Origin: a virus
DNA length: 24,106 nt
Strand: one strand, 5' to 3'
IMG/VR virus record: IMGVR_UViG_3300025872_000299
Coordinates: 1-24,106 of that record
A model generated the notes under the pieces. The model was not told where the DNA came from, made no database searches, and saw nothing but the letters and a program-made list of their open reading frames with translations. Position 1 is the stretch's first letter; the number at the start of each line of letters is the position of its first letter. Both the position numbers and the translations under genes were made by a program. Shown piece by piece: positions 2,333-18,680 of this stretch.

Positions 2333-4030
2333 CTATTGGTAATCCTTCAAGAGTTCTTGCTTGAGCGATTGCTGATCGACGTAGCCTTGCGGGAGCACAA
2401 TCGGAGGGCGGTTCTGCTGCCCTGGAAGAATGCCCTTCGACTGATTGGCGACTCGTAACCGTTCCTCGATTAACCGACCCCACTTATCGCGCCACGCTTT
2501 CGCCGCTGCGGGCCATTGCTTGTCGCCCATCGAATCGTTAGGGAGTTCGTTCAAAGCGGCTTCTTGCTCGCCTGCGGTCAGCGAGGCCCCGAAGATTTTA
2601 TGCCGCGCTTCCGAGAGGAAAGCTCGACCCTCTTGCAGCCACATTTCCCGCTTGGCGCTCAAGGTGCCGGTCATCTGCCCGACGCGGCCCATGCGAGAAT
2701 CGATTGATCCGACATAGGCCGGGTCAAAGTTTTTGATGAGATTATCCAACTGCCCAACGAGCGTGCGTTCTTCGGCAATGTTCGTGCGTTCGGCTGGCGA
2801 GAGCAGCGTCACGGTTTGCTGTCCGGTGAGTTTAGGGTCTTTGAACTTGCTCGCGTCTGGTATCACCCCATATTTCTTCTGTGCGGAGTCCGCCGCCGCA
2901 ATCGCCGCCGCTTGAGGATCGCCGCCCGCCTGCAAGGCTCGCAAGAATTCCAAATTGGCGAAGTTCTGTGCCGTGTCCTGCAATTCCTTTTTGTCGGCCT
3001 TCGTCTCCATGAAGGCGAGACGTTCATCAGCCAGCCCACGCAGCCCCTTCTGCGCCACCTTGGCGGACTCCTCCATATCCCGCTGCGCTTGCACAAAGGC
3101 GTCATACTTCTTCTTGTCCGGCCCGTTCCCTCGCCCCATTTTCATATCGCTGAGGTCCGAGAAGAAGTCATATTGCGCCTGTCGAGCATTCACGGCTTTC
3201 TGAAAGGCCGTCACCCGCTCACTCACCACGGCGGGGTTTTGCGTGGATTCGCCACGATCAATCGCTGCCTGTTGCGCCTGCCAGTATGCTAAGTCCTTCT
3301 TGGACTGGTTCATCATTTCATAGGCCATGAACCGGCTATCGCTCGCCGTGTCTACGATCTTCTTAGCGTCGGGGTTCATCGCAAGAAACGCATTCCGCGC
3401 ATCAGCAGAGCCGAATTCGCCACCATAGAGGCGGACTCCTGGCGTGCCAAAGGTCTGTAATTGTGCGCGCATTTCCATGGAGAGCGGGGCATAGACTTCA
3501 TGCGTGCTCTTGAGTGTGGCCGAGCGTTCTTCAATTTCTTGCAATTTAGCTTGTCCCAGTTCTAGCTTTTGCTTATGTTCCAGCGCCTTTTCGTTCAACC
3601 CTTGGGTTTTCTCGATGAGATTTAATTGATCCAGCGCGAGCTTGGGGAAGCGGTAGCCTAATTCCATCACCGCCTGATCGCGTCCAGCTATATCCCCGTT
3701 CTTAATCGACTCACCCACTTTCTTGAGCGTGTCACCGGCAGACAGGAGTTGTTCGGGGTTCAAGTCAGGGAATCCCGCCACCCCTGCAATGAATTGATAG
3801 ACCCGCGCCTTGTCTGGCAACGAAACCGTGGGATCGTCAACCAGTTTGGTCCCCAGCGTGATTTGATTGGTTTTCCATGCCTGCTCGCGGGCTTGTTGCG
3901 CGTCCGCCAAGCGCATCCGGTCAATCGCGTTGCTTTCCCCCATGAGTTCCATGCGCTGCGCGTTCTGCTGCATGTTCTGGAAGGCAATCGCGGTTTGCGC
4001 GAACTTTCCGAAGTCGATCAAGTCACCCAT
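2333..4030 (-). CDS. probable ejection (internal virion) protein, 565 aa
   Basis: I do not recognise a domain. The protein is largely charged and alpha-helical (many Q, A, K, E), with coiled-coil-like stretches around residues 140-175 and 270-350 and no signal peptide or strong membrane segment. It lies between a gp7-like gene and a 768-residue gene, so by order and size it corresponds to the middle ejection protein (P22 gp20-like position). The reading frame is open as far as 4153, but the start is placed at the ATG at 4030 (MGDLIDFGKF). That ATG has GAGGGATTC just upstream and lies 11 bp after the stop of the preceding gene. The longer version would overlap that gene by over 100 bp and begin with residues that look like an out-of-frame shadow. 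The role is inferred from context only. Confidence 0.6.
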   Translation of the reverse strand: MGDLIDFGKFAQTAIAFQNMQQNAQRMELMGESNAIDRMRLADAQQAREQAWKTNQITLGTKLVDDPTVSLPDKARVYQFIAGVAGFPDLNPEQLLSAGDTLKKVGESIKNGDIAGRDQAVMELGYRFPKLALDQLNLIEKTQGLNEKALEHKQKLELGQAKLQEIEERSATLKSTHEVYAPLSMEMRAQLQTFGTPGVRLYGGEFGSADARNAFLAMNPDAKKIVDTASDSRFMAYEMMNQSKKDLAYWQAQQAAIDRGESTQNPAVVSERVTAFQKAVNARQAQYDFFSDLSDMKMGRGNGPDKKKYDAFVQAQRDMEESAKVAQKGLRGLADERLAFMETKADKKELQDTAQNFANLEFLRALQAGGDPQAAAIAAADSAQKKYGVIPDASKFKDPKLTGQQTVTLLSPAERTNIAEERTLVGQLDNLIKNFDPAYVGSIDSRMGRVGQMTGTLSAKREMWLQEGRAFLSEARHKIFGASLTAGEQEAALNELPNDSMGDKQWPAAAKAWRDKWGRLIEERLRVANQSKGILPGQQNRPPIVLPQGYVDQQSLKQELLKDYQ

Positions 4031-4041
4031 TGAATCCCTCG

Positions 4042-4821
4042 TTAAAAGGTCGCGCCAGGTGTATTCACGATGAACGGGTTGCCACCGCCCGCCGGTTGAA
4101 ACGCCGTGGTCCCTGCACCACTCGCGCTCCCGTAGTATGTCGGCGCTCGCCACCCACCCATGCTCATGCTGTCCATCATCGGCTGATACATTTGATATTG
4201 GCCGTAATTCGTGATCCCGTTCCCCACCGCATTGAATCCGCCCTGGATACCCTGGCCGAGCGCGTTGTATTGCGTCTGAATGGCGTTCCCTTGCGAAATA
4301 CCCATTTGCGCCTGCATGTTGCCGATAGCGTTGCCTGTCTGATTCGTGAGAGTGGCTTGCCCCGTCGCTGCGTTCGCGCCCATCGTGGTCATGTTGAACA
4401 GGCGGCTCATAATCCGTTCACCTTCGTCAGCCGCCAGTCCCTTGTTAAACATCGCCAGCGTTTCGAGTCCCGCCCCTGATCCAAAGAGGCCCCTCGCGGC
4501 CAGTTGCCGGTTGATATTCCGCGTCCCGATTTCGCTCTGAAATTGGAACATCGGACTCTCTTTGAGAAATCCCGATACATCCCCGCCGCCACTCAACAGG
4601 TTCCAGTAGGCATTCCCCGCACCGAGGCCCATCTGTCTGAATGGCGAGGTATCCTCTCTGGCCCGCTGGTTCATCGTCAGCATCGTTTCGGCGGACTTAT
4701 CCGCCGCGTAGCGCATGGCCGCTGCCGACTTCTGCGCCCCCGACGCCCCCATGATGCCGCTAAAGATGCTCCCGGCTGCACCAACCGCCGCCGCGCCAAC
4801 CATCGCTGCGCCTACACCCAT
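4042..4821 (-). CDS. P22 gp7-like DNA transfer / ejection protein, 259 aa
   Basis: The protein starts with a hydrophobic Ala/Gly/Val segment (residues 1-30, with GAAMVGAAAVGAAG followed by GSIFSGIMGA). A region rich in Ala, Met, Asn and Gln follows, with phrases such as DTSPFRQMGLGA and NINRQLAARGLFGSGAG, and then a Gly/Gln/Tyr-rich tail. This layout is typical of podoviral DNA-transfer proteins of the P22 gp7 class, which are packaged in the virion and ejected into the host. The length fits (P22 gp7 is about 229 aa). It is the first of three probable ejection genes. Its start overlaps the stop of the sulfotransferase-like gene by 10 bp. Family assignment is by sequence style and position. 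Confidence 0.65.
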   Translation of the reverse strand: MGVGAAMVGAAAVGAAGSIFSGIMGASGAQKSAAAMRYAADKSAETMLTMNQRAREDTSPFRQMGLGAGNAYWNLLSGGGDVSGFLKESPMFQFQSEIGTRNINRQLAARGLFGSGAGLETLAMFNKGLAADEGERIMSRLFNMTTMGANAATGQATLTNQTGNAIGNMQAQMGISQGNAIQTQYNALGQGIQGGFNAVGNGITNYGQYQMYQPMMDSMSMGGWRAPTYYGSASGAGTTAFQPAGGGNPFIVNTPGATF

Positions 4822-5381
4822 GCTGCCTCCTTCATCCGTCTGGCGATATGGTCAAACTCCCCCGCCGCCGCTCGCTGAATATCCTCGCGGATCTGCCAGG
4901 GCATCAGTTGCACCAGCATCCCGCTCACTTGATCGAGCCATCCTGTATCGACGGCCCGCCCAGTCATGCGCTCAAAGAGCCATGCCGACGTAGCCCGATC
5001 CCACTCGCGGCAATCCACCGTCTCGCCGGGGAGATCCTTCGCATGCGAGAATGCCGCCCGGTACTGCGCCATCATTCCCGTATAGTCCAGGTCGCCATAG
5101 GACTCTTTCAGCGATGACAGAATGGCCTCGTCGCTGTTCGTGATCGTGAGGTACTTGGCGTCAGGGAAGTGCATGCGGAGTTCATCGAGGAAGAAGACGT
5201 TGCTGCAATCGCTGTTCACCACCACCGGCGCACATTGATCCCGCATCAGCGCCCGCATCTCTGCCATGGTCTTGACGCGCTTCCAGGCTTCATGAAAGCA
5301 AGGGACGCCCGCACCGGAGAGAAAAACGGACAGCCAAGCGGTACGACAGCGGGGATAAGAGAGGACAAACCAAGGTGTCAT
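4812..5381 (-). CDS. phage sulfotransferase-like P-loop protein, 189 aa
   Basis: The N-terminus (residues 5-20) reads FVLSYPRCRTAWLSVF, which matches the 5'-phosphosulfate-binding loop of the PAPS-dependent sulfotransferase fold (canonical SYPKSGTTWL). The downstream phrase at residues 25-32, with Cys-Phe-His-Glu, is also usual in short phage members. The second PAPS contact is normally an RDP...S motif after a beta strand. Here the matching region (residues 77-90, YLTITNSDEAILSS) keeps the Ser but has Asn where Arg is expected, so activity is uncertain. At 189 residues it is shorter than cellular sulfotransferases (about 250-300). The frame is open upstream to 5627, but the ATG at 5381 gives an ATGA overlap with the preceding gene and starts exactly at the fold. 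Substrate unknown. It lies between a citrate-synthase-like gene and the ejection genes. Confidence 0.65.
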   Translation of the reverse strand: MTPWFVLSYPRCRTAWLSVFLSGAGVPCFHEAWKRVKTMAEMRALMRDQCAPVVVNSDCSNVFFLDELRMHFPDAKYLTITNSDEAILSSLKESYGDLDYTGMMAQYRAAFSHAKDLPGETVDCREWDRATSAWLFERMTGRAVDTGWLDQVSGMLVQLMPWQIREDIQRAAAGEFDHIARRMKEAAWV

Positions 5382-5908
5382 GCGAGAACCGGGGCCTCCC
5401 GTTGAATGCGGCAATATTCTTCCGTCCAGGCCGTCAAGCGCCCACGGATCAGCAATTCCCCGACACCGGCACGCGGAATGCCCAGCGCCAACGCCGCCGC
5501 AGCGGTATAGCAGGAGGGGTTCGGATAGAGATTCTTCCCGCGAGCATGAAAGAAGTTCGTAATGGTGGTGATTTTGCGAGCGATCAACGGCGCTTCCTTG
5601 ACCAGCAGCGAGGCCACCGGCACCCACAGCGGGTCATGGTCGCCTTTGGCGAATTCGCTCCCCCAGCCCGCAATCCGTTGTTTTGCGGCTAGGGCCGCTT
5701 CGACTTGATCAAGACAGTCTTGCGAGGCAAGCAGATCATACGTCTTGAGTAAGGGGGCATGGAGTCCGCCGAGCGTCAGCAATGCCGCCGCCACCGCCTT
5801 GAAGTAATCGCCGCTCCCGAAGGCGGACATGGCCAGCGCATGATGGGAACAGTTGCCGCGCAAGGCGGAGTCATGGTGGGCTTGCAGAACCGCATCCAAC
5901 AGCGTCAC
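5378..5908 (-). CDS. half-length citrate synthase-fold protein, catalytically degenerate, 176 aa
   Basis: The whole protein aligns by eye with the C-terminal half of citrate synthase / citryl-CoA lyase. Residues 10-50 correspond to the helix pair before the first catalytic His (GGLH at 47-50 against GPLHGG). Residues 79-92 (IAGWGSEFAKGDHD) match the IMGFGHRVYK..DP loop. Residues 127-145 (NLYPNPSCYTAAAALALGI) match the NVDFYSG...ALGIP segment, and 150-165 match the final helix before AHW. His50 is kept, but the second His (pig His320) is Ser84 and the catalytic Asp (pig Asp375) is Ser132, so normal citrate synthesis is unlikely. The N-terminal about 200 residues of the family are absent. Start is GTG at 5908, in a GTGA overlap with the upstream gene. 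Role unknown; a binding or structural use is possible. Confidence 0.62.
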   Translation of the reverse strand: MTLLDAVLQAHHDSALRGNCSHHALAMSAFGSGDYFKAVAAALLTLGGLHAPLLKTYDLLASQDCLDQVEAALAAKQRIAGWGSEFAKGDHDPLWVPVASLLVKEAPLIARKITTITNFFHARGKNLYPNPSCYTAAAALALGIPRAGVGELLIRGRLTAWTEEYCRIQREAPVLA

Positions 5909-6255
5909 GGCATCACCCGCACATAATAGGTTTGACTCCCTGGCGCAATCGGCGATCCTGTTCTATTGTATAGATATAGTATCACCGTGTCATCATCGGT
6001 CACATTGGCCCAAGGGACCAAGCCCGTAGACATGGCCGACGGCAAGCCTACCTGCACCGTCTGCCCCATATCCGGCCTTGCCCCGTTGACCGTGATCGTC
6101 ACTTCAGCCAGAGCGCCAGATGCAATCGAGCCGGTATCCGTCGTTGTCGAGCCCACCATCTTGAGCAGGGCTTCAATCGAACGATAGAAGGCTTCCACCG
6201 CCCGAAAGTCCTTATTCTCCGATACCGCTGGAACTGGTCTGATTCGTTCCGCCAT
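5905..6255 (-). CDS. small virion-associated protein, unknown function, 116 aa
   Basis: No family is recognised. Residues 1-40 look helical and charged (RAVEAFYRSIEALLKMV). Residues 45-116 look like a small beta domain with alternating strands (ALAEVTITVNGARPDMGQTV, then VILYLYNRTGSPIAPGS, ending in YYVRVMP), which is a common form for small phage tail or decoration proteins. It is translationally coupled on both sides: its ATG overlaps the stop of the gp10-like gene by 1 nt (TAATG), and its stop overlaps the GTG start of the citrate-synthase-like gene. A structural role beside the tail hub is inferred from context only. Confidence 0.6.
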   Translation of the reverse strand: MAERIRPVPAVSENKDFRAVEAFYRSIEALLKMVGSTTTDTGSIASGALAEVTITVNGARPDMGQTVQVGLPSAMSTGLVPWANVTDDDTVILYLYNRTGSPIAPGSQTYYVRVMP

Positions 6256-7682
6256 TACCGCCCCAGCCAGTCGATTTGTTCATGCGCCCCGATCAAAATG
6301 AAATCGGTTGGGTCGGCATGCACGATTTCGGTTTGACAGGTCTTGTAAATCCCGTTGCGCCGCCAGTCGATGGTGATTTCGTGCTGTCCCACCTGGCCGA
6401 GGGACTTCCACCGCTCATTGCCCCAGTTCCCGTTATCCCGCCGCTGACGGAGTATCACTTGCGGGTCGGTCGTCGTCGCATCGGCCAGCCCACGCTTGCA
6501 CCGGATACGGAAGATGTTGCTGCGCTTGGTGATTTCTGCTCCGTGCGAGACATGCCCGGTACGGACCACCGTGCGAATGGGGTTCCCGTTATCGGTGTAG
6601 ACTTGGCGGCTGGCCTTGTAGATGATGCCGGTGGCGTAGTCCCCGACGAGATGGAAGTTCCAGCTTCGCGCATAGGCGTAGGTTTGCCCGCGATAACGCT
6701 GGTAATCCGCCGTGGCCGTGTCCCAGTAGCCCCACTTGTGCCACTGTTGCGTGATGTAGTTATAGACCAGGGTGGTGCGGCCTGTGGGGAAGTTGAGCAC
6801 GTAGAGCGGAAAGCCATCGACGGTCATGGTATAGCCCACCGCATCGTCTACCGCCGTCATGCGCTGAATCACGCGGTCATACGGGCTGGACACCGGCAGC
6901 ACTTGCCGCCCCTGCATCGTCACCAGTTGCCGCTTGTCGCTCAACCACATCCAAGTGGACCCCACCAGGGCGAGGCTATGCGGAGCCGAAATACCGTAGG
7001 GTTGCGCCGATCCCGACACCCGCGAAAACGGCGTTTGCCCGTCGTTCACCCAAAACTCTACCGATTCCCGACCCAGTGTGATGATTTCCCTGAAGCCTTC
7101 CTTCAGCGCAATCACCGCATCGGGCCGCGATTCGGCGGTAAAGAAGTCCAACGCCACCCAAGAGGTAATGTCGGTTACATCGGAAAACTGGACCGTGCTC
7201 CCGTTATTCGCCAGCAGATACCCGTCGAGGTAGGCTAGGTGCGTGACAGACGTAGGGGCTTGCGCGTCAGCCATCGTCGTTAGCGTGGAGAGGTCGGTGT
7301 GGACGATGCTCCCGCCGTTCGCCATCGCGCAAATGGTGCCATTGTCCGCAAAGCTCACCAGTTGATTCGACCGGAGCGCCGTGGAGCCGGTGATTTCAGA
7401 ATAGGTGCCCGCCTGATCGGTAATCTTCCAGACTCGTCCCGCGCTCACCGCCAGCACGCATTCTTCTGCGTCCCACCAATAGAGGCCGTCTACCGGCTGG
7501 CCGGTGCCCAGGTCAATCCATTCGGTCAACCCTGGCCGCTTCATGATATGGAGCTTGCCTTCCACCACCACCGGCACGCCATCGATAATGGTGGAGTTCC
7601 ATTGGTCAAGCTGTTCGTCTTCCACGCTCTCATATGGTTGCCCGATCAGCGGCACATCCAGCCACTTCGCTTGATCGCTCAT
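6255..7682 (-). CDS. P22 gp10-like packaged-DNA stabilization / tail hub protein, 475 aa
   Basis: Length (475 against 472 for P22 gp10) and layout match the packaged-DNA stabilization protein that plugs the portal and forms the tail hub of P22-like podoviruses. The N-terminus describes an input-type beta protein (MKRPGLTEW, near 47-55). The middle contains the gp10-style phrases ESRPDAVIALKEGFREII and TLGRESVEFW, followed by YGISAPHSLALVGSTWMWL. The C-terminal third is rich in aromatic beta strands (YNYITQQWHKWGYWD). The assignment comes from remembered similarity to the gp10 pattern, including the 'question whether the equipment is the source of the trouble' style central motif SVEFW. It follows the gp4-like adaptor gene with a TAATG overlap, the same order as gp4 and gp10 in P22. 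Confidence 0.78.
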   Translation of the reverse strand: MSDQAKWLDVPLIGQPYESVEDEQLDQWNSTIIDGVPVVVEGKLHIMKRPGLTEWIDLGTGQPVDGLYWWDAEECVLAVSAGRVWKITDQAGTYSEITGSTALRSNQLVSFADNGTICAMANGGSIVHTDLSTLTTMADAQAPTSVTHLAYLDGYLLANNGSTVQFSDVTDITSWVALDFFTAESRPDAVIALKEGFREIITLGRESVEFWVNDGQTPFSRVSGSAQPYGISAPHSLALVGSTWMWLSDKRQLVTMQGRQVLPVSSPYDRVIQRMTAVDDAVGYTMTVDGFPLYVLNFPTGRTTLVYNYITQQWHKWGYWDTATADYQRYRGQTYAYARSWNFHLVGDYATGIIYKASRQVYTDNGNPIRTVVRTGHVSHGAEITKRSNIFRIRCKRGLADATTTDPQVILRQRRDNGNWGNERWKSLGQVGQHEITIDWRRNGIYKTCQTEIVHADPTDFILIGAHEQIDWLGR

Positions 7683-8552: not shown

Positions 8553-8885
8553 TTAGCGCATCTCCTTTGCCAGCCCCTTTTCGATCAACGCTCCGCTGAG
8601 ACTCTCCCGCCCGCGCACCACGCCACCCAACAAGCGCCCGAAGCTGTCCCGTTTGCAGGCGGTCAGTTCAGACGGTCCCTCCTTGAGCCAGACCGTCGTA
8701 AATTCAGAGGCCGCGTCATACCCCGCCTGTCCCTTCTCAGGCGTGTCCACCCCCAACAATCGCACCCGCTCCTCGCCGGTAATCCCGACATGGAACAGGA
8801 CGAAGGTATCGCCGTCGATCACCCGCTTGACGTGTTCAGGATGCAGGATGAACGAGAGACACAAGAGCACCAGCGCGTGCCTCAT
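8553..8885 (-). CDS. exported staphylococcal nuclease (thermonuclease) homolog, 110 aa
   Basis: A calcium-dependent DNA/RNA endonuclease of the SNase family (OB-fold) is indicated by VIDGDT at residues 22-27 (Asp24 and Asp26 correspond to Asp19/Asp21 of S. aureus nuclease). RLLGVDTPE at 42-50 supplies the equivalents of Arg35, Asp40, Thr41 and Glu43, and FGR at 82-84 supplies Arg87. The whole catalytic set is therefore present. Residues 1-15 (MRHALVLLCLSFILH) form a hydrophobic leader, so export to the periplasm is likely. The protein ends soon after the last OB-fold helix and lacks most of the usual C-terminal extension (mature S. aureus enzyme 149 aa). The start at 8885 is chosen because it gives an ATGA overlap with the lipoprotein gene and begins at the leader; the frame is open further upstream without meaningful similarity. 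It may degrade host or rival DNA at the envelope. Confidence 0.85.
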   Translation of the reverse strand: MRHALVLLCLSFILHPEHVKRVIDGDTFVLFHVGITGEERVRLLGVDTPEKGQAGYDAASEFTTVWLKEGPSELTACKRDSFGRLLGGVVRGRESLSGALIEKGLAKEMR

Positions 8886-9319
8886 TTGTGATGAATCCCC
8901 CCGTTGATGATCGTAGAGGCGGGACCGCCACCCGCCGAGGATGCCGCTGACACATTCGGCGTCGCGCTCACCCCGTTCACGGTCGTCTGGCTGGCCGGCA
9001 TCAGCGCCCCCATCCCGATCAATCCACCGAACTGCAAGAGCCCCGAAGCCACCTGCCCGCCCTGGCCCTGTGACGACATCGGTACCCAGCCCGTCATGGC
9101 GTGGCAATCGGTATAGACCGTTTCAGGGAAGAGGGGTTGCAACCCGTCCTCGGTTTTGACATGCCCTTCGCAATCCTCGACCATGACAAAACCGGCGTTG
9201 GTCCCGAACGGGGACCTGACCTCGACCACGCGAGGCACCGCCACCCGGCCATTGCCCCATTCATGCACCGTCGTACAGCCCGCCAGTACCAGCATCCCCA
9301 GCACAACCAACATCCTCAT
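8882..9319 (-). CDS. phage lipoprotein, 145 aa
   Basis: Residues 1-15 (MRMLVVLGMLVLAGC) are a signal peptide with a clear lipobox, LAGC. Cys15 should be lipidated and the mature protein anchored in the inner or outer membrane. The mature part has a short beta-rich region with two Cys (residues 50 and 72, possibly a disulfide). It ends in a low-complexity Gly/Ser/Ala/Pro tail with hydrophobic Gly-rich turns (GLLQFGGLIGMGALMP). No known spanin, Cor-like or superinfection-exclusion family is recognised, though either role would fit a lipoprotein in a phage lysis block. It is coupled by ATGA overlaps to the nuclease gene downstream and to the small basic protein upstream, so the nuclease and lipoprotein are probably made together. 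Confidence 0.72.
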   Translation of the reverse strand: MRMLVVLGMLVLAGCTTVHEWGNGRVAVPRVVEVRSPFGTNAGFVMVEDCEGHVKTEDGLQPLFPETVYTDCHAMTGWVPMSSQGQGGQVASGLLQFGGLIGMGALMPASQTTVNGVSATPNVSAASSAGGGPASTIINGGIHHK

Positions 9320-11172: not shown

Positions 11173-13650
11173 TTATCCCCTCCTCCGATGACGGAGCCAT
11201 CCGCCATATCCCGTTGTGCCTGAATCGATGCGGCGTCCCGTCAAGAGCAACGCCCCCGCTGTCGGCTGAATCGTCTGGTGATCGGTTGCGGAGAGCGACG
11301 AGGTTCCGCCAGTGAAGGCCACCATGCCCACGGTTGGGATGATCCCCACATCTACCAGTGAAGTCGCGCCCGTCAGATTCAGCGCCCCCACTGCCGGGGT
11401 AACTTCAACACTGCCGCCTTCCTGAAGGGTTGGGCTCTCGCCCGTCACCGCAAGACCGCCCGCGCTGGGGATCACAGCAAAGTCAATCGTTGACCATTGC
11501 TCTGTGAGGGTCAGACTGCCCGATTCAGGAACAATCGTTGGCCCATATTGGTTGATGGTCGGTTGCCAGCCGCCGCCAGAAATGGCGGTGGTGACTTCAT
11601 CGCTATAGCCCGACTCGTTCGCGCTGGTGTCGTAGGAAGTAATGGCGAAATAGTTGTTGCCGTAGGGCAATCCGTTCCAGACGTAGGTGGTGACGTTCCC
11701 CACATCCACGGATTCGGTATAGGTCGCTGGACTGGTGCCGTGATAAACCTTGTACCCGGCCAGGTCTGGTTCGGTATTCGCCGCCCAAGAGATTTCCGCC
11801 CACTGCATGATCTTGAGCACCGCCACCGCTGGACGAACCACCGTGCCCTGGATCGGCGTATTGCCTGAGAGCGTCAGGCTGCCCGCTGAGGGGGTGATCG
11901 ACGGCGATGAGGTATTGACCAGGCTAGGGGTGCCGCCCGTCAGCGTGAGACTGCCCACCGTGGGGGTGGTTTCTGGCGAACCTACATCGACGCCAAAGCG
12001 CAAGATGCCGACGTTGGGGGTGATGGAAATGGCGCTGCCACCGACGGTCACTGTCGGGGTGTCACCCGTCAGGAGTAACGCCCCCGCGACAGGCGAAGCT
12101 GTCAGCCCTTGCGTGGCGCTATAACCTGTGAAGGCCAGCGCCCCGACAACCGGAGTCAAGCGTGAATCTGTGATGGTAGTTGCCGTGTTACCTGTGAAGG
12201 CAAGGCTACCAGCCGCAGGCGTGAGTTGCGTATCAACAATCAGGTTGCTGGTTGCGCCGGTGATAGCAAGTGCCCCAACAGCAGGGGTCGCGGTCCAGGC
12301 TTGCGGAGAACTGCCACCGGTCAGGGTGAGACCGCCAGCCGTGGGTGTGATATTGGAATTGCTTGACCCGCTTTCCTGGACCGTCGGCGCATCGCCGGTA
12401 AAGGCCAACGCCCCAGCCGTGGGAATCAGCCCAGCATCGAGGGCGGACGAATTTCCGCTGAGGGTCAGGCTCCCCACGCTCGGCGTGGTGCGCTGATCGG
12501 TCAAGAGCGTCGAAGATTGCCCTGTTAGCGCGAGACTACCCGCAGCAGGCGTGAGGAAGAAATCAGTGCGAAGCGTTGATACCTGTCCAGTCAAGGCGAG
12601 ACTGCCGACGGATGGCGTCAGTCGTGCATCGGTCAGGAGCGTGGCTGTATCGCCCGTTAGCGCCAGCGCCCCAACCACAGGCGTCAGCCGAGTATCTTCT
12701 ACGAGACTGCCCGCCGATCCGGTCAGCGCGAGGCTCCCAACGGATGGCGTCACCAGCACAGGGTTGATAATCTGAGGAGCCTCCCCTGTAAAGGTCATGC
12801 TCCCGGCAGAGGGGGTGATGGTCGTATTGGGATCAGCCGCGATGCCGAAATAGAGCGCCCCCGCTTGTGGCGTAATCGGGGTAACAGTCCCCGCAAAGAC
12901 CGTGGCCGCAAGTCCGACTGCGGCTAAGGCCCCCGCCGCCGTGGTGATGAAGCTGCCGATGGAGGCCAGCGAGGTATTGCCGGTGGCCGCCACTGCTCCC
13001 GCTGTGGGAGTAATGTATGTGTTAAAAACGAAATTGTTGGAGAATTCCAGCCAGGGCCGGTAGGTGGTGCCGGTCTGCGTATCGTCTTCCGGCAAGTCGC
13101 CAGACGAGGCGCTACAGCCCCATCGTATGCTGCCGTTGTGCCCGACGGTCCCTCCCGTCCCGCTGGTGATGTTTCCGCCAAGTCCGACTTCAACCACCAG
13201 CCGGTCCCCAGCGGTACAGGCATAACTACTCAGGGCCGTGGAGGGAAAGTTGCGGTTGGCGAGGGTCGTCCCAAGTTCATTCGTCGTGTCGCGGGTGATC
13301 GAGAGCAGCGTGGCGCGGGTGGTAGATCCGTCGTTGCTACAGACCGTAATCTTGAGCGTTAGGAACAGGTTGCAGTTGTTGAGTTCTTCTAAACATTGGA
13401 ACTGCGCCTTGACGTTGCCGCTCAACGTCTGTGCGGCCAACGGATCGCTGACATATTGCCGGTGGAGGGAGTCGTTATCGACGAGGTGATCCGCCGCATC
13501 CGGCGCATAGGCCGTCGTGGTGAGCGTGGACGAATCCGCCGTCAGCAACAGCTTGCGGGTGACGCCGTTGTTGTGTTCCCATTCGGCTCCTGCCGAGGGG
13601 GGAGTGACCGGCGCGGCTTCAGTTAAAGGGAAATAAACCCTTGTCGCCAT
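11173..13650 (-). CDS. repeat-rich adhesin or tail-fibre-like protein with embedded FN3 domain, 825 aa
   Basis: Residues 1-211 form a beta-rich head with phrases such as LLSITRDTTNELGTTLANRN and GDRLVVEVGLGGN. Residues 213-610 hold about 18-19 degenerate repeats of roughly 18-26 residues built on T-P-x-x-G-x-L-x-L-T-G. Residues 612-692 are a fibronectin type III domain (EISWAANTEPDLAGYKVYHG ... SANESGYSDEV). Residues 706-805 hold about five more repeats, and a basic tail ends in RHRRRG. There is no signal peptide. The layout (head, beta repeat shaft, Ig-like module) suggests an elongated surface adhesin, fibre or decoration protein. Its ATG follows the upstream stop directly (TAAATG). I do not recognise the repeat as a named family. 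Confidence 0.65.
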   Translation of the reverse strand: MATRVYFPLTEAAPVTPPSAGAEWEHNNGVTRKLLLTADSSTLTTTAYAPDAADHLVDNDSLHRQYVSDPLAAQTLSGNVKAQFQCLEELNNCNLFLTLKITVCSNDGSTTRATLLSITRDTTNELGTTLANRNFPSTALSSYACTAGDRLVVEVGLGGNITSGTGGTVGHNGSIRWGCSASSGDLPEDDTQTGTTYRPWLEFSNNFVFNTYITPTAGAVAATGNTSLASIGSFITTAAGALAAVGLAATVFAGTVTPITPQAGALYFGIAADPNTTITPSAGSMTFTGEAPQIINPVLVTPSVGSLALTGSAGSLVEDTRLTPVVGALALTGDTATLLTDARLTPSVGSLALTGQVSTLRTDFFLTPAAGSLALTGQSSTLLTDQRTTPSVGSLTLSGNSSALDAGLIPTAGALAFTGDAPTVQESGSSNSNITPTAGGLTLTGGSSPQAWTATPAVGALAITGATSNLIVDTQLTPAAGSLAFTGNTATTITDSRLTPVVGALAFTGYSATQGLTASPVAGALLLTGDTPTVTVGGSAISITPNVGILRFGVDVGSPETTPTVGSLTLTGGTPSLVNTSSPSITPSAGSLTLSGNTPIQGTVVRPAVAVLKIMQWAEISWAANTEPDLAGYKVYHGTSPATYTESVDVGNVTTYVWNGLPYGNNYFAITSYDTSANESGYSDEVTTAISGGGWQPTINQYGPTIVPESGSLTLTEQWSTIDFAVIPSAGGLAVTGESPTLQEGGSVEVTPAVGALNLTGATSLVDVGIIPTVGMVAFTGGTSSLSATDHQTIQPTAGALLLTGRRIDSGTTGYGGWLRHRRRG
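11236..11535 (-). repeat. second block of TPxxGxLxLTG-type protein repeats (about 5 units)
   Basis: Codes residues 706-805 of the 825-residue protein. Units include IVPESGSLTLTEQWS, VIPSAGGLAVTGESP, VTPAVGALNLTGATS, IIPTVGMVAFTGGTS and IQPTAGALLLTGRR. The units are diverged at the DNA level, so this is an old protein-level repeat and not a recent tandem duplication. Confidence 0.8.
11821..13014 (-). repeat. main block of TPxxGxLxLTG-type protein repeats (about 18 units)
   Basis: Codes residues 213-610 of the 825-residue protein. The most regular part is units 5-9 (residues 300-405), with near-constant 22-residue spacing: VTPSVGSLALTG, LTPVVGALALTG, LTPSVGSLALTG, LTPAAGSLALTG, TTPSVGSLTLSG. 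Linkers between units vary from 6 to 14 residues. Units repeat with period about 66 bp in DNA, but with many substitutions. Confidence 0.85.
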
Positions 13651-17225: not shown

Positions 17226-18680
17226 TTAAGTAAGTGACTCCGTGGGGGTAATTGCCAGATCGGACATGGACGCCCCCGCATCCAAGATGTGTTTCAGTAG
17301 TCCGTCGCCGTAAATCTCCAGTTCGATTTCATCGCCCAGTAACTTGATGACTTCGATGAACTGTTGCGCTTGCGCCGCCATCCAGGTATGGCATTGGAAG
17401 GTCCGCCCGCCTGTCACCATCACCGGAATGATTACGTCTGAATTGTTTTCCGGCTGGGAGTAGGCGTGATGCGTCTTATCCTCAGCCAAGCAGGAATCGC
17501 AGCCATAGAGATGGAATTTCCTGAATCCCAGCATCCGCAACAACGGCAGCGAGGTATTCAGGACCGTGGTGCAGCTCGGCACCGGGTAGGACAGGGGATA
17601 GTGCGCGGTAATCAGATCCTCGATCTTCTCTGCCATGGTGTGCCAGAGATAGGTGCGGTCTTTCGGCAACCCGTCAAACACGCTCGGATGACATTGCGAG
17701 GCGATGAGGTATTTGCACCCGTCCACCACCGGCTTCGTGAATCGCTGATTGAACTCGCGGGCATCGACCATGATATGTGCCGAGGGGGTCAATCCATGCT
17801 CCAGCGCCCAGTTATAGGTGCCGTTGAGGGTAATGAGCTTGACGCCTTCGGCCCGTTTCTGCCTGATTTCCTCGACGTACTGATTCAGCGAGGGACCTCC
17901 ACCCAGCAACATCACTTCGACATCATTGCTCACATGCGGGACCACCTGCTCCCACCCCGCCGCGCAATTCACGGCGGCATTCGCCCGAATCTGCTCATCA
18001 GTGACGTTCAGTTGCCCCTGCTTGGTGACGTTTTTGACATCCTTCCAGCTCGACACGTAGAACAGGACCGAGGACGCCTGCTCCTGGGACCAATGGATGA
18101 GACACCCGCGCTTGGCGAACTGCATCAGCCACCACTCATAGGGATGCACACTCAAGTGCAAGGGCGCGTCGATCAACTCGCCGCAGACATCCTCGACCGT
18201 GGAAATCTGAAAGAAGGTGTGCCTGGTCGCCGCCAGGATATGGTCAAGGACCTGATCGACCTTCTCCGGTGGAATGTGCTCAAGGACATCGGTGCAAAAC
18301 CCGTATTCCGCTGTCACCGGCGAGGCGGTTTCCAGATCGTGCTTGCGGAACCGGATCGAGATGGAGTCGTCCTGGCATGCCTGCTGGACCGCCTCATCGA
18401 GGCAGTTGCGCGTAAAGTCGAGCATCGTCACATCGAGCTTGCCGTTCTTCGCCAGGGCCAAAGCCCCGCGCCCTGTGCCGCAGCCGAAGTCGATGACGGT
18501 TGAACCGGGACGAGGCGTTGCCTGGTCCAGAAAGATGCCCGCCACCTGCTCGCCAGGAGCGACTGTCCGGTATTGCGGGAACTCGCCCCACAAGCGCCCA
18601 TACTTCTCCGCTTCGGGATTGCCGGTGCCCATCGTGACGGTCGGTGCGCCTCCCGTCATGCCTGCCTGCGCGGTCATCAT
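17226..18680 (-). CDS. SAM methyltransferase fused to MptE-like (DUF115) domain, 484 aa
   Basis: The N-terminal half (residues about 25-215) is a class I SAM-dependent methyltransferase: motif I VIDFGCGTGRGALAL at 62-76, an acidic residue after strand 2 (MLDFT, 86-90), and the post-III motif TDVLEHIPPE at 130-139. The C-terminal half (about 253-460) has VMLLGGGPSL at 256-265, ITLNGTYNWALEHGLTPSAH at 283-302, MVDAREF, and FHLYGCDSC at 389-397. This is the pattern of the DUF115 family, which includes MptE-like pyrophosphokinases and the Maf flagellin glycosyltransferases. Methyl acceptor and donor substrates are unknown. A role in modifying virion or host surface glycans is inference. The start is one of two adjacent ATGs after GAGGAGG. 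Confidence 0.8.
   Translation of the reverse strand: MMTAQAGMTGGAPTVTMGTGNPEAEKYGRLWGEFPQYRTVAPGEQVAGIFLDQATPRPGSTVIDFGCGTGRGALALAKNGKLDVTMLDFTRNCLDEAVQQACQDDSISIRFRKHDLETASPVTAEYGFCTDVLEHIPPEKVDQVLDHILAATRHTFFQISTVEDVCGELIDAPLHLSVHPYEWWLMQFAKRGCLIHWSQEQASSVLFYVSSWKDVKNVTKQGQLNVTDEQIRANAAVNCAAGWEQVVPHVSNDVEVMLLGGGPSLNQYVEEIRQKRAEGVKLITLNGTYNWALEHGLTPSAHIMVDAREFNQRFTKPVVDGCKYLIASQCHPSVFDGLPKDRTYLWHTMAEKIEDLITAHYPLSYPVPSCTTVLNTSLPLLRMLGFRKFHLYGCDSCLAEDKTHHAYSQPENNSDVIIPVMVTGGRTFQCHTWMAAQAQQFIEVIKLLGDEIELEIYGDGLLKHILDAGASMSDLAITPTESLT

Follow-up and report, generated by a model that had tools for sequence, protein, structure and literature searches.

A group of viruses has reworked the citrate synthase fold into a half-length protein that lacks two of the three catalytic residues, and the gene encoding it is frequently accompanied by a gene for a sulfotransferase-like (ST) protein. 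The case examined here comes from the window, i.e. the whole stretch of 24,106 nucleotides that was analysed, corresponding to virus record IMGVR_UViG_3300025872_000299, whose genes lie on the minus strand and whose gene content reads as part of a P22-type podovirus (Table 1). We tentatively propose, at a little below even chances, that this citrate synthase-like (CS-like) protein is a citrate synthase-derived, CoA-ligand-binding half of a two-part modification enzyme that would not synthesize citrate. Citrate synthase is a near-universal enzyme of central metabolism, and the label of TCA-cycle auxiliary metabolic gene that automated annotation would give to such a gene is probably incorrect. 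The position of most CS-like genes beside an ST gene, and the fusion of the two in one case, suggest a two-part viral enzyme system; literature searches on phage citrate synthase or citryl-CoA lyase with a sulfotransferase returned nothing relevant, and no earlier description of such a system was found. The frequent presence of the ST-like partner makes the function of the CS-like protein testable.

Table 1. Genes and CS-like codons of the window; residue counts refer to 48 distinct CS-like sequences
Feature	Position	Strand	Remarks
Large internal/ejection-type protein after the gp7-like gene	2333..4153	(-)	Putative assignment, P22-type order also used; L008 homologue, 37% identity, same order
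DNA-ejection protein (gp7-like), directly downstream of the cassette	4042..4821	(-)	phrog_598, E 1e-25
ST gene	4812..5381	(-)	Sulfotransferase-like P-loop protein of 189 aa; start overlaps the CS-like stop (ATGA)
CS-like gene	5378..5908	(-)	176-aa citrate-synthase/citryl-CoA-lyase-fold protein; GTG start
Arg157 codon	5438..5440	(-)	Oxaloacetate carboxylate Arg (pig R401); R in 48/48
Codons 129-132, PNPS	5513..5524	(-)	PN in 48/48
Codons 81-88, GWGSEFAK	5645..5668	(-)	CoA-adenine-type loop; G[WF]G in 48/48
His50 codon	5759..5761	(-)	First catalytic His (pig H274), from the 2p2w alignment; H in 48/48
His11 codon	5876..5878	(-)	Oxaloacetate-binding His (pig H238); H in 46/47 with a residue there
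116-aa gene upstream of the cassette	5905..6255	(-)	GTGA overlap: stop overlaps the CS-like GTG start
Head closure Hc3 (P22 gp10-like)	6255..7682	(-)	phrog_578, E 9e-56
Short staphylococcal-nuclease-like gene	8553..8891	(-)	PF00565, 34.9 bits
825-aa protein	11173..13650	(-)	Many degenerate 'TPxxGSLxLTG' repeats, without a Pfam match; probable fibre or decoration protein
SAM methyltransferase fused to an MptE-like domain	17226..18680	(-)	In the structural region; PF01973, 56.9 bits

Fold and active site of the CS-like protein

The relationship to citrate synthase is apparent both from sequence comparisons and from the predicted fold. The protein passes the Pfam citrate synthase profile PF00285 (E 1.6e-8, 34.4 bits against a cut-off of 27), with its residues 3-162 falling on profile positions 169-341 of 357; the N-terminal half of citrate synthase is absent, and lengths in the family range from 172 to 199 aa. 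Among 24 aligned homologues, 23 match PF00285 individually (E up to 0.1), phmmer relates the window protein to the T. maritima citrate synthase 2p2w at E 3e-4, and a family profile searched against the PDB finds citrate synthases down to 2e-14 and citryl-CoA lyase at 8e-7. The AlphaFold2 model, obtained with the 24-sequence alignment as input, has a pLDDT of 94.6 and adopts the all-helical citrate synthase fold. In Foldseek and VIA-align comparisons, it superposes on citryl-CoA lyase 6hxl over 173 residues (Z 18.3, rmsd 2.6 A), on 6hxp with a TM score of 0.82, and on 2p2w over residues 1-173 (Z 17.8), although sequence identity to solved citrate synthases is about 20-24%. Taken together, the PF00285 match, the homologue and PDB profile matches and the modelled fold place the resemblance far beyond chance, and a chance resemblance was thereby ruled out. 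The initial annotation, made from the sequence alone, had described a half-length, catalytically broken citrate synthase domain and had proposed a profile search and a superposition as checks; the PF00285 match over residues 3-162, the PDB profile matches and the superposition at Z about 18 along the whole length all bear this description out.

The closest solved fold is that of citryl-CoA lyase (CCL; H. thermophilus 6hxp, and the CCL module of ATP citrate lyase), with which the CS-like protein has in common the first catalytic His and the CoA-type loop. However, it is shorter than the stand-alone lyase and aligns only to residues 51-230 of the 256 modelled in 6hxp, so that both ends are absent even by comparison with that compact enzyme. 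With respect to membership among the citryl-CoA lyases, the fold is present, whereas the second His and the catalytic Asp are absent from every CS-like member; the ATP-citrate-lyase partner is also absent, and a sulfotransferase-like gene is linked instead. As for citrate synthase and 2-methylcitrate synthase (PF00285), the significant sequence and fold match concerns their C-terminal half, from which the equivalents of H238, H274 and R401 are kept while those of H320, D375 and R329 have been lost family-wide.

Conservation at these sites was counted over 48 distinct CS-like sequences, with residue roles and numbering as established for pig citrate synthase. The alignment with 2p2w pairs His50 with the His of GPLHGG, Ser84 with the His of GFGHRVYK and Ser132 with the Asp of YPNVD, which confirms the initial assignment of these three residues. 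The Ser84 position, which replaces the catalytic His (pig H320), is occupied by Asn (26), Ser (19), Gly (2) or Thr (1) and never by His, and the Ser132 position, which replaces the catalytic Asp (pig D375), by Ala (34), Ser (13) or Gly (1) and never by Asp. Conservation of the two serines in relatives had been raised as a question: it is the absence of His and Asp that is invariant (48/48), not serine itself. Ser84 and Ser132 were also considered as a new catalytic pair and rejected, as the positions vary among N/S/G/T and A/S/G. Of the catalytic triad His274/His320/Asp375, only H274 is kept in the family. The oxaloacetate site is likewise incomplete, with the H238 and R401 equivalents present and the R329 equivalent (the second oxaloacetate arginine) never Arg in the 48 sequences. 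Lys88, at the CoA-phosphate Arg/Lys position, is Lys in 45/48. To judge from the aligned residues, one carboxylate arginine, two histidines and the CoA loop remain as a pocket throughout the family.

Considered as an auxiliary TCA-cycle gene, the CS-like gene probably does not encode a working citrate synthase, given its half length and the catalytic residues lost in 48/48 sequences. A citrate synthase annotation on a viral scaffold has been reported from Lake Baikal viromes, namely a gltA gene (TCA cycle) on a scaffold assigned to the Pelagibacter phage HTVC008M virotype (PMC8066274). Beyond this common annotation, the Baikal gene is set apart by its description, which, in the part of that report dealing with gltA, mentions neither a half domain nor a pairing with a sulfotransferase.

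Distribution, selection and genomic context

All relatives of the CS-like protein are metagenomic. A single-sequence scan of viral contigs used patterns that were too specific and gave no match, and the family was recovered by degenerate-pattern and profile scans. A degenerate DNA pattern for YPNPxxYTAA led to nine viral contigs, each with a homologue at about 40% identity, and profile-based scans of IMG/VR raised the number to 34 and then to 69 contigs (70 including the window), several of them near-identical and thus not all independent. No CS-like match was found among the INPHARED isolate phages with three family members as queries, nor among PLSDB plasmids; PHROGs gave nothing above noise (one member only, at E 0.08), and the BFVD viral structure predictions gave no match up to E 0.001. 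Two motif scans, run on 84,980 cellular genomes, returned 13 and 21 candidate stretches with no relatives among them, these scans requiring exact motifs, so that their sensitivity is limited and distant cellular relatives may be missed. In these data, then, uncultured viruses are the only known source of the family. A recent host-derived copy was considered and set aside, the same exact-motif scans having confirmed no cellular relative.

Pairwise dN/dS values of 0.06-0.21 indicate purifying selection on the family, in agreement with the initial view of a selected gene. Loss of the N-terminal half and of two catalytic residues might suggest a cellular citrate synthase that was captured and is now decaying, but dozens of intact homologues have identical boundaries and identical losses at these dN/dS values. 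Purifying selection across lineages refutes decay, to which we attach next to no probability; the CS-like proteins form a remodelled family rather than a decayed remnant.

In the window, the Hc3 and ejection genes enclose three overlapping genes, i.e. the 116-aa gene, the CS-like gene and the ST gene, the GTGA overlap confirming the coupling to the preceding gene noticed at the outset. By size and order, genes at the high end of the window would be portal-, scaffold- and coat-like. The tail-operon location first proposed holds for the window but not for the whole family, a second clade of which (L036-L051, L075, L077 and relatives) is surrounded by replication genes and lies close to the gene of a T7-type RNA polymerase. 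Strong selection on the family is seen in P22-type as well as T7-RNA-polymerase-type phages.

The closest relatives of the window by Hc3, contigs L008, L009 and L010 (70, 61 and 59% identity), retain the 116-aa flanking gene (61, 44 and 43% identity) and the ejection gene and are without both cassette genes, CS-like and ST. At the cassette site, two of them harbor an unrelated ORF of 168-187 aa that falls into no clear family and has a weak DUF6420 match (L008:7771-8277 and L009:7769-8332), and the site is empty in the third. A sulfotransferase gene was absent from all of nine records lacking the CS-like gene.

The sulfotransferase-like protein and its alternative partners

What the initial annotation did not mention is that the next gene is ST-like, that the pair recurs and that the two are fused in one phage. 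An ST gene overlaps the CS-like gene or lies within 200 bp of it in 49 of the 70 contigs, window included, on its upstream or its downstream side depending on the lineage, according to neighbour tables based on simple ORF calling. In 8 further contigs, where the CS-like gene is in a replication region, an ST-type gene is found 1.7-3.7 kb away and belongs to a second ST subfamily (SGMPRSGSS / SSGRTGSS); in the remaining 13, no ST gene was found in the stretch examined. One CS-like gene standing alone (L096) has an ST gene elsewhere in its record (E 3e-34). In contig L121 (1126-2283), a single 385-aa ORF directly upstream of the gp7-like gene joins ST and CS-like domains, with Sulfotransfer_4 (PF17784) and Citrate_synt (PF00285) both above cut-off. 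Part of this association could be explained if both genes used the same insertion hotspot in front of the ejection gene.

The window ST protein remains below threshold against the Pfam profiles Sulfotransfer_3 and Sulfotransfer_4 (16.9 against 22.8 with one of them, 15.9 against 27 with the other), and homologues from L034, L121 and L134 exceed Pfam sulfotransferase cut-offs. The structure most similar by Z to its AlphaFold2 model (pLDDT 90) is tyrosylprotein sulfotransferase 5wrj (Z 13.0), but adenylate and NR kinases are level with it (Z 12.9); the P-loop is without the kinase Lys, which favours a sulfotransferase over a nucleotide kinase. As in PAPS-dependent sulfotransferases (Sulfotransfer_3/_4; tyrosylprotein sulfotransferases), this P-loop is of the PRSxTxW type, and the downstream R...S motif is present in most ST homologues. 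By contrast with known sulfotransferases, the ST proteins are very divergent, measure only about 165-200 aa, and occur as partners of, or in fusion with, CS-like, GNAT-like or hydroxylase proteins. A pattern scan with the ST profile was workable only after restriction to closer members, because of this divergence. Against 50,697 isolate phages, the window ST had one match, in Xanthomonas phage AhaSv, and the replication-region ST had none. The AhaSv homologue (L020:7980-8558) adjoins a MazG-like gene and lies near an annotated cysteine dioxygenase; a CS-like gene was not noticed in the stretch around it. Phage sulfotransferases have been reported and their function called unclear (PMC10580990), and the CS-like/ST module supplies a partner and a context for them.

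An ST-centred survey covered the best 80 of 182 viral loci. Among these best 80, the ST is fused to a C-terminal GNAT-acetyltransferase-like domain in 31, an Asp/Asn beta-hydroxylase (PF05118) is nearby in 10, a CS-like protein in 7 (one of them fused) and a separate GNAT-like gene in one, while 31 have no GNAT-like, hydroxylase or CS-like protein within reach. Pfam support for the GNAT assignment is weak (E 0.02-0.03 in two fusions). Many ST loci, that of the window among them, immediately precede a gp7-like gene, and the variety of genes found there indicates that the tail-ejection junction is a cargo site, with the ST-like gene as a hub with alternative partners. GNAT-like and CS-like proteins are not strict alternatives, since L053 encodes a weak GNAT-like gene together with a CS-like one. 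ST-GNAT-like fusions upstream of a gp7-like gene are found at L125:2492-3559, L132:2489-3490, L174:2492-3586 and other loci, and the hydroxylase gene lies beside ST at L123:2964-3581 and L169:2988-3530. In Pseudomonas fluorescens phage PfAn1 (L197:4001-5065), a hydroxylase and an acetyltransferase-like gene occupy the same junction.

Proposed function and rival explanations

Sulfotransferases use PAPS, and a 3'-phosphoadenosine part is common to PAPS and CoA. The CS-like protein, which from its residues probably no longer makes citrate, may bind CoA, acyl-CoA or a related 3'-phosphoadenosine nucleotide, and could, together with its ST-like partner, make up a two-component enzyme in which it serves for ligand binding or group transfer, the pair modifying a target in the infected cell. 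CoA binding is predicted from the conservation of the G[WF]G loop and K88, with pocket equivalences taken from the sequence alignment and the residue roles in citrate synthase; among the guesses first offered for this gene, binding of CoA or an acyl ligand appears to fit the conservation best. Replacement of the CS-like protein in other phages by an acetyl-CoA-type GNAT domain, with the same ST family and at the same place, suggests by analogy a CoA-linked role. More generally, these viruses might carry a kit in which an ST-like hub works with exchangeable partners (CS-like, GNAT-like or Asp/Asn hydroxylase) so as to modify a shared target during infection, a proposal whose probability we put slightly short of one half.

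Other functions can be envisaged for the same pocket and fold. The CS-like protein might still be an active enzyme with a new chemistry: its remodelled pocket would itself act on a CoA thioester, for instance by transferring an acyl group to a monocarboxylate, and ST would come in at a different step. The conserved H274 and R401 equivalents, the loss of one of the two carboxylate arginines and the GNAT-like domain as an alternative ST partner would all suit such an enzyme, but no conserved replacement base or nucleophile is present, position 132 being usually Ala and position 84 Asn or Ser, and we consider it unlikely, albeit with an appreciable share of the probability. An antagonist of host citrate synthase, in which the half domain would form dead mixed dimers and so reduce TCA flux during infection, has less in its favour and is judged very unlikely. 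The large domains of citrate synthase and CCL, which have the same fold, do form the dimer interface, and the genes around the second-clade members are replication genes, which are expressed inside the cell. Nevertheless, the strictest conservation is mostly at the pocket (H50, R157, G[WF]G, PN and H11), which would be odd for a pure interface decoy, identity to solved citrate synthases is low, and the sulfotransferase partner and the fusion are left unexplained.

Proximity to the ejection gene raises a further alternative, a virion-assembly or ejection helper in which the fold would be reused to chaperone or modify the adjoining gp7-like protein. In P22, a non-structural gene is found at the equivalent place, and the cassette immediately precedes the gp7-like gene in the window and in the other tail-module lineages examined. 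This helper role is nonetheless quite improbable in our estimation: the ejection gene is present in L008-L010 although the cassette is not, and members of the second clade are encoded in the replication region, well away from the ejection genes. The replication-region CS-like genes of phages with a T7-type RNA polymerase also argue against a purely structural role.
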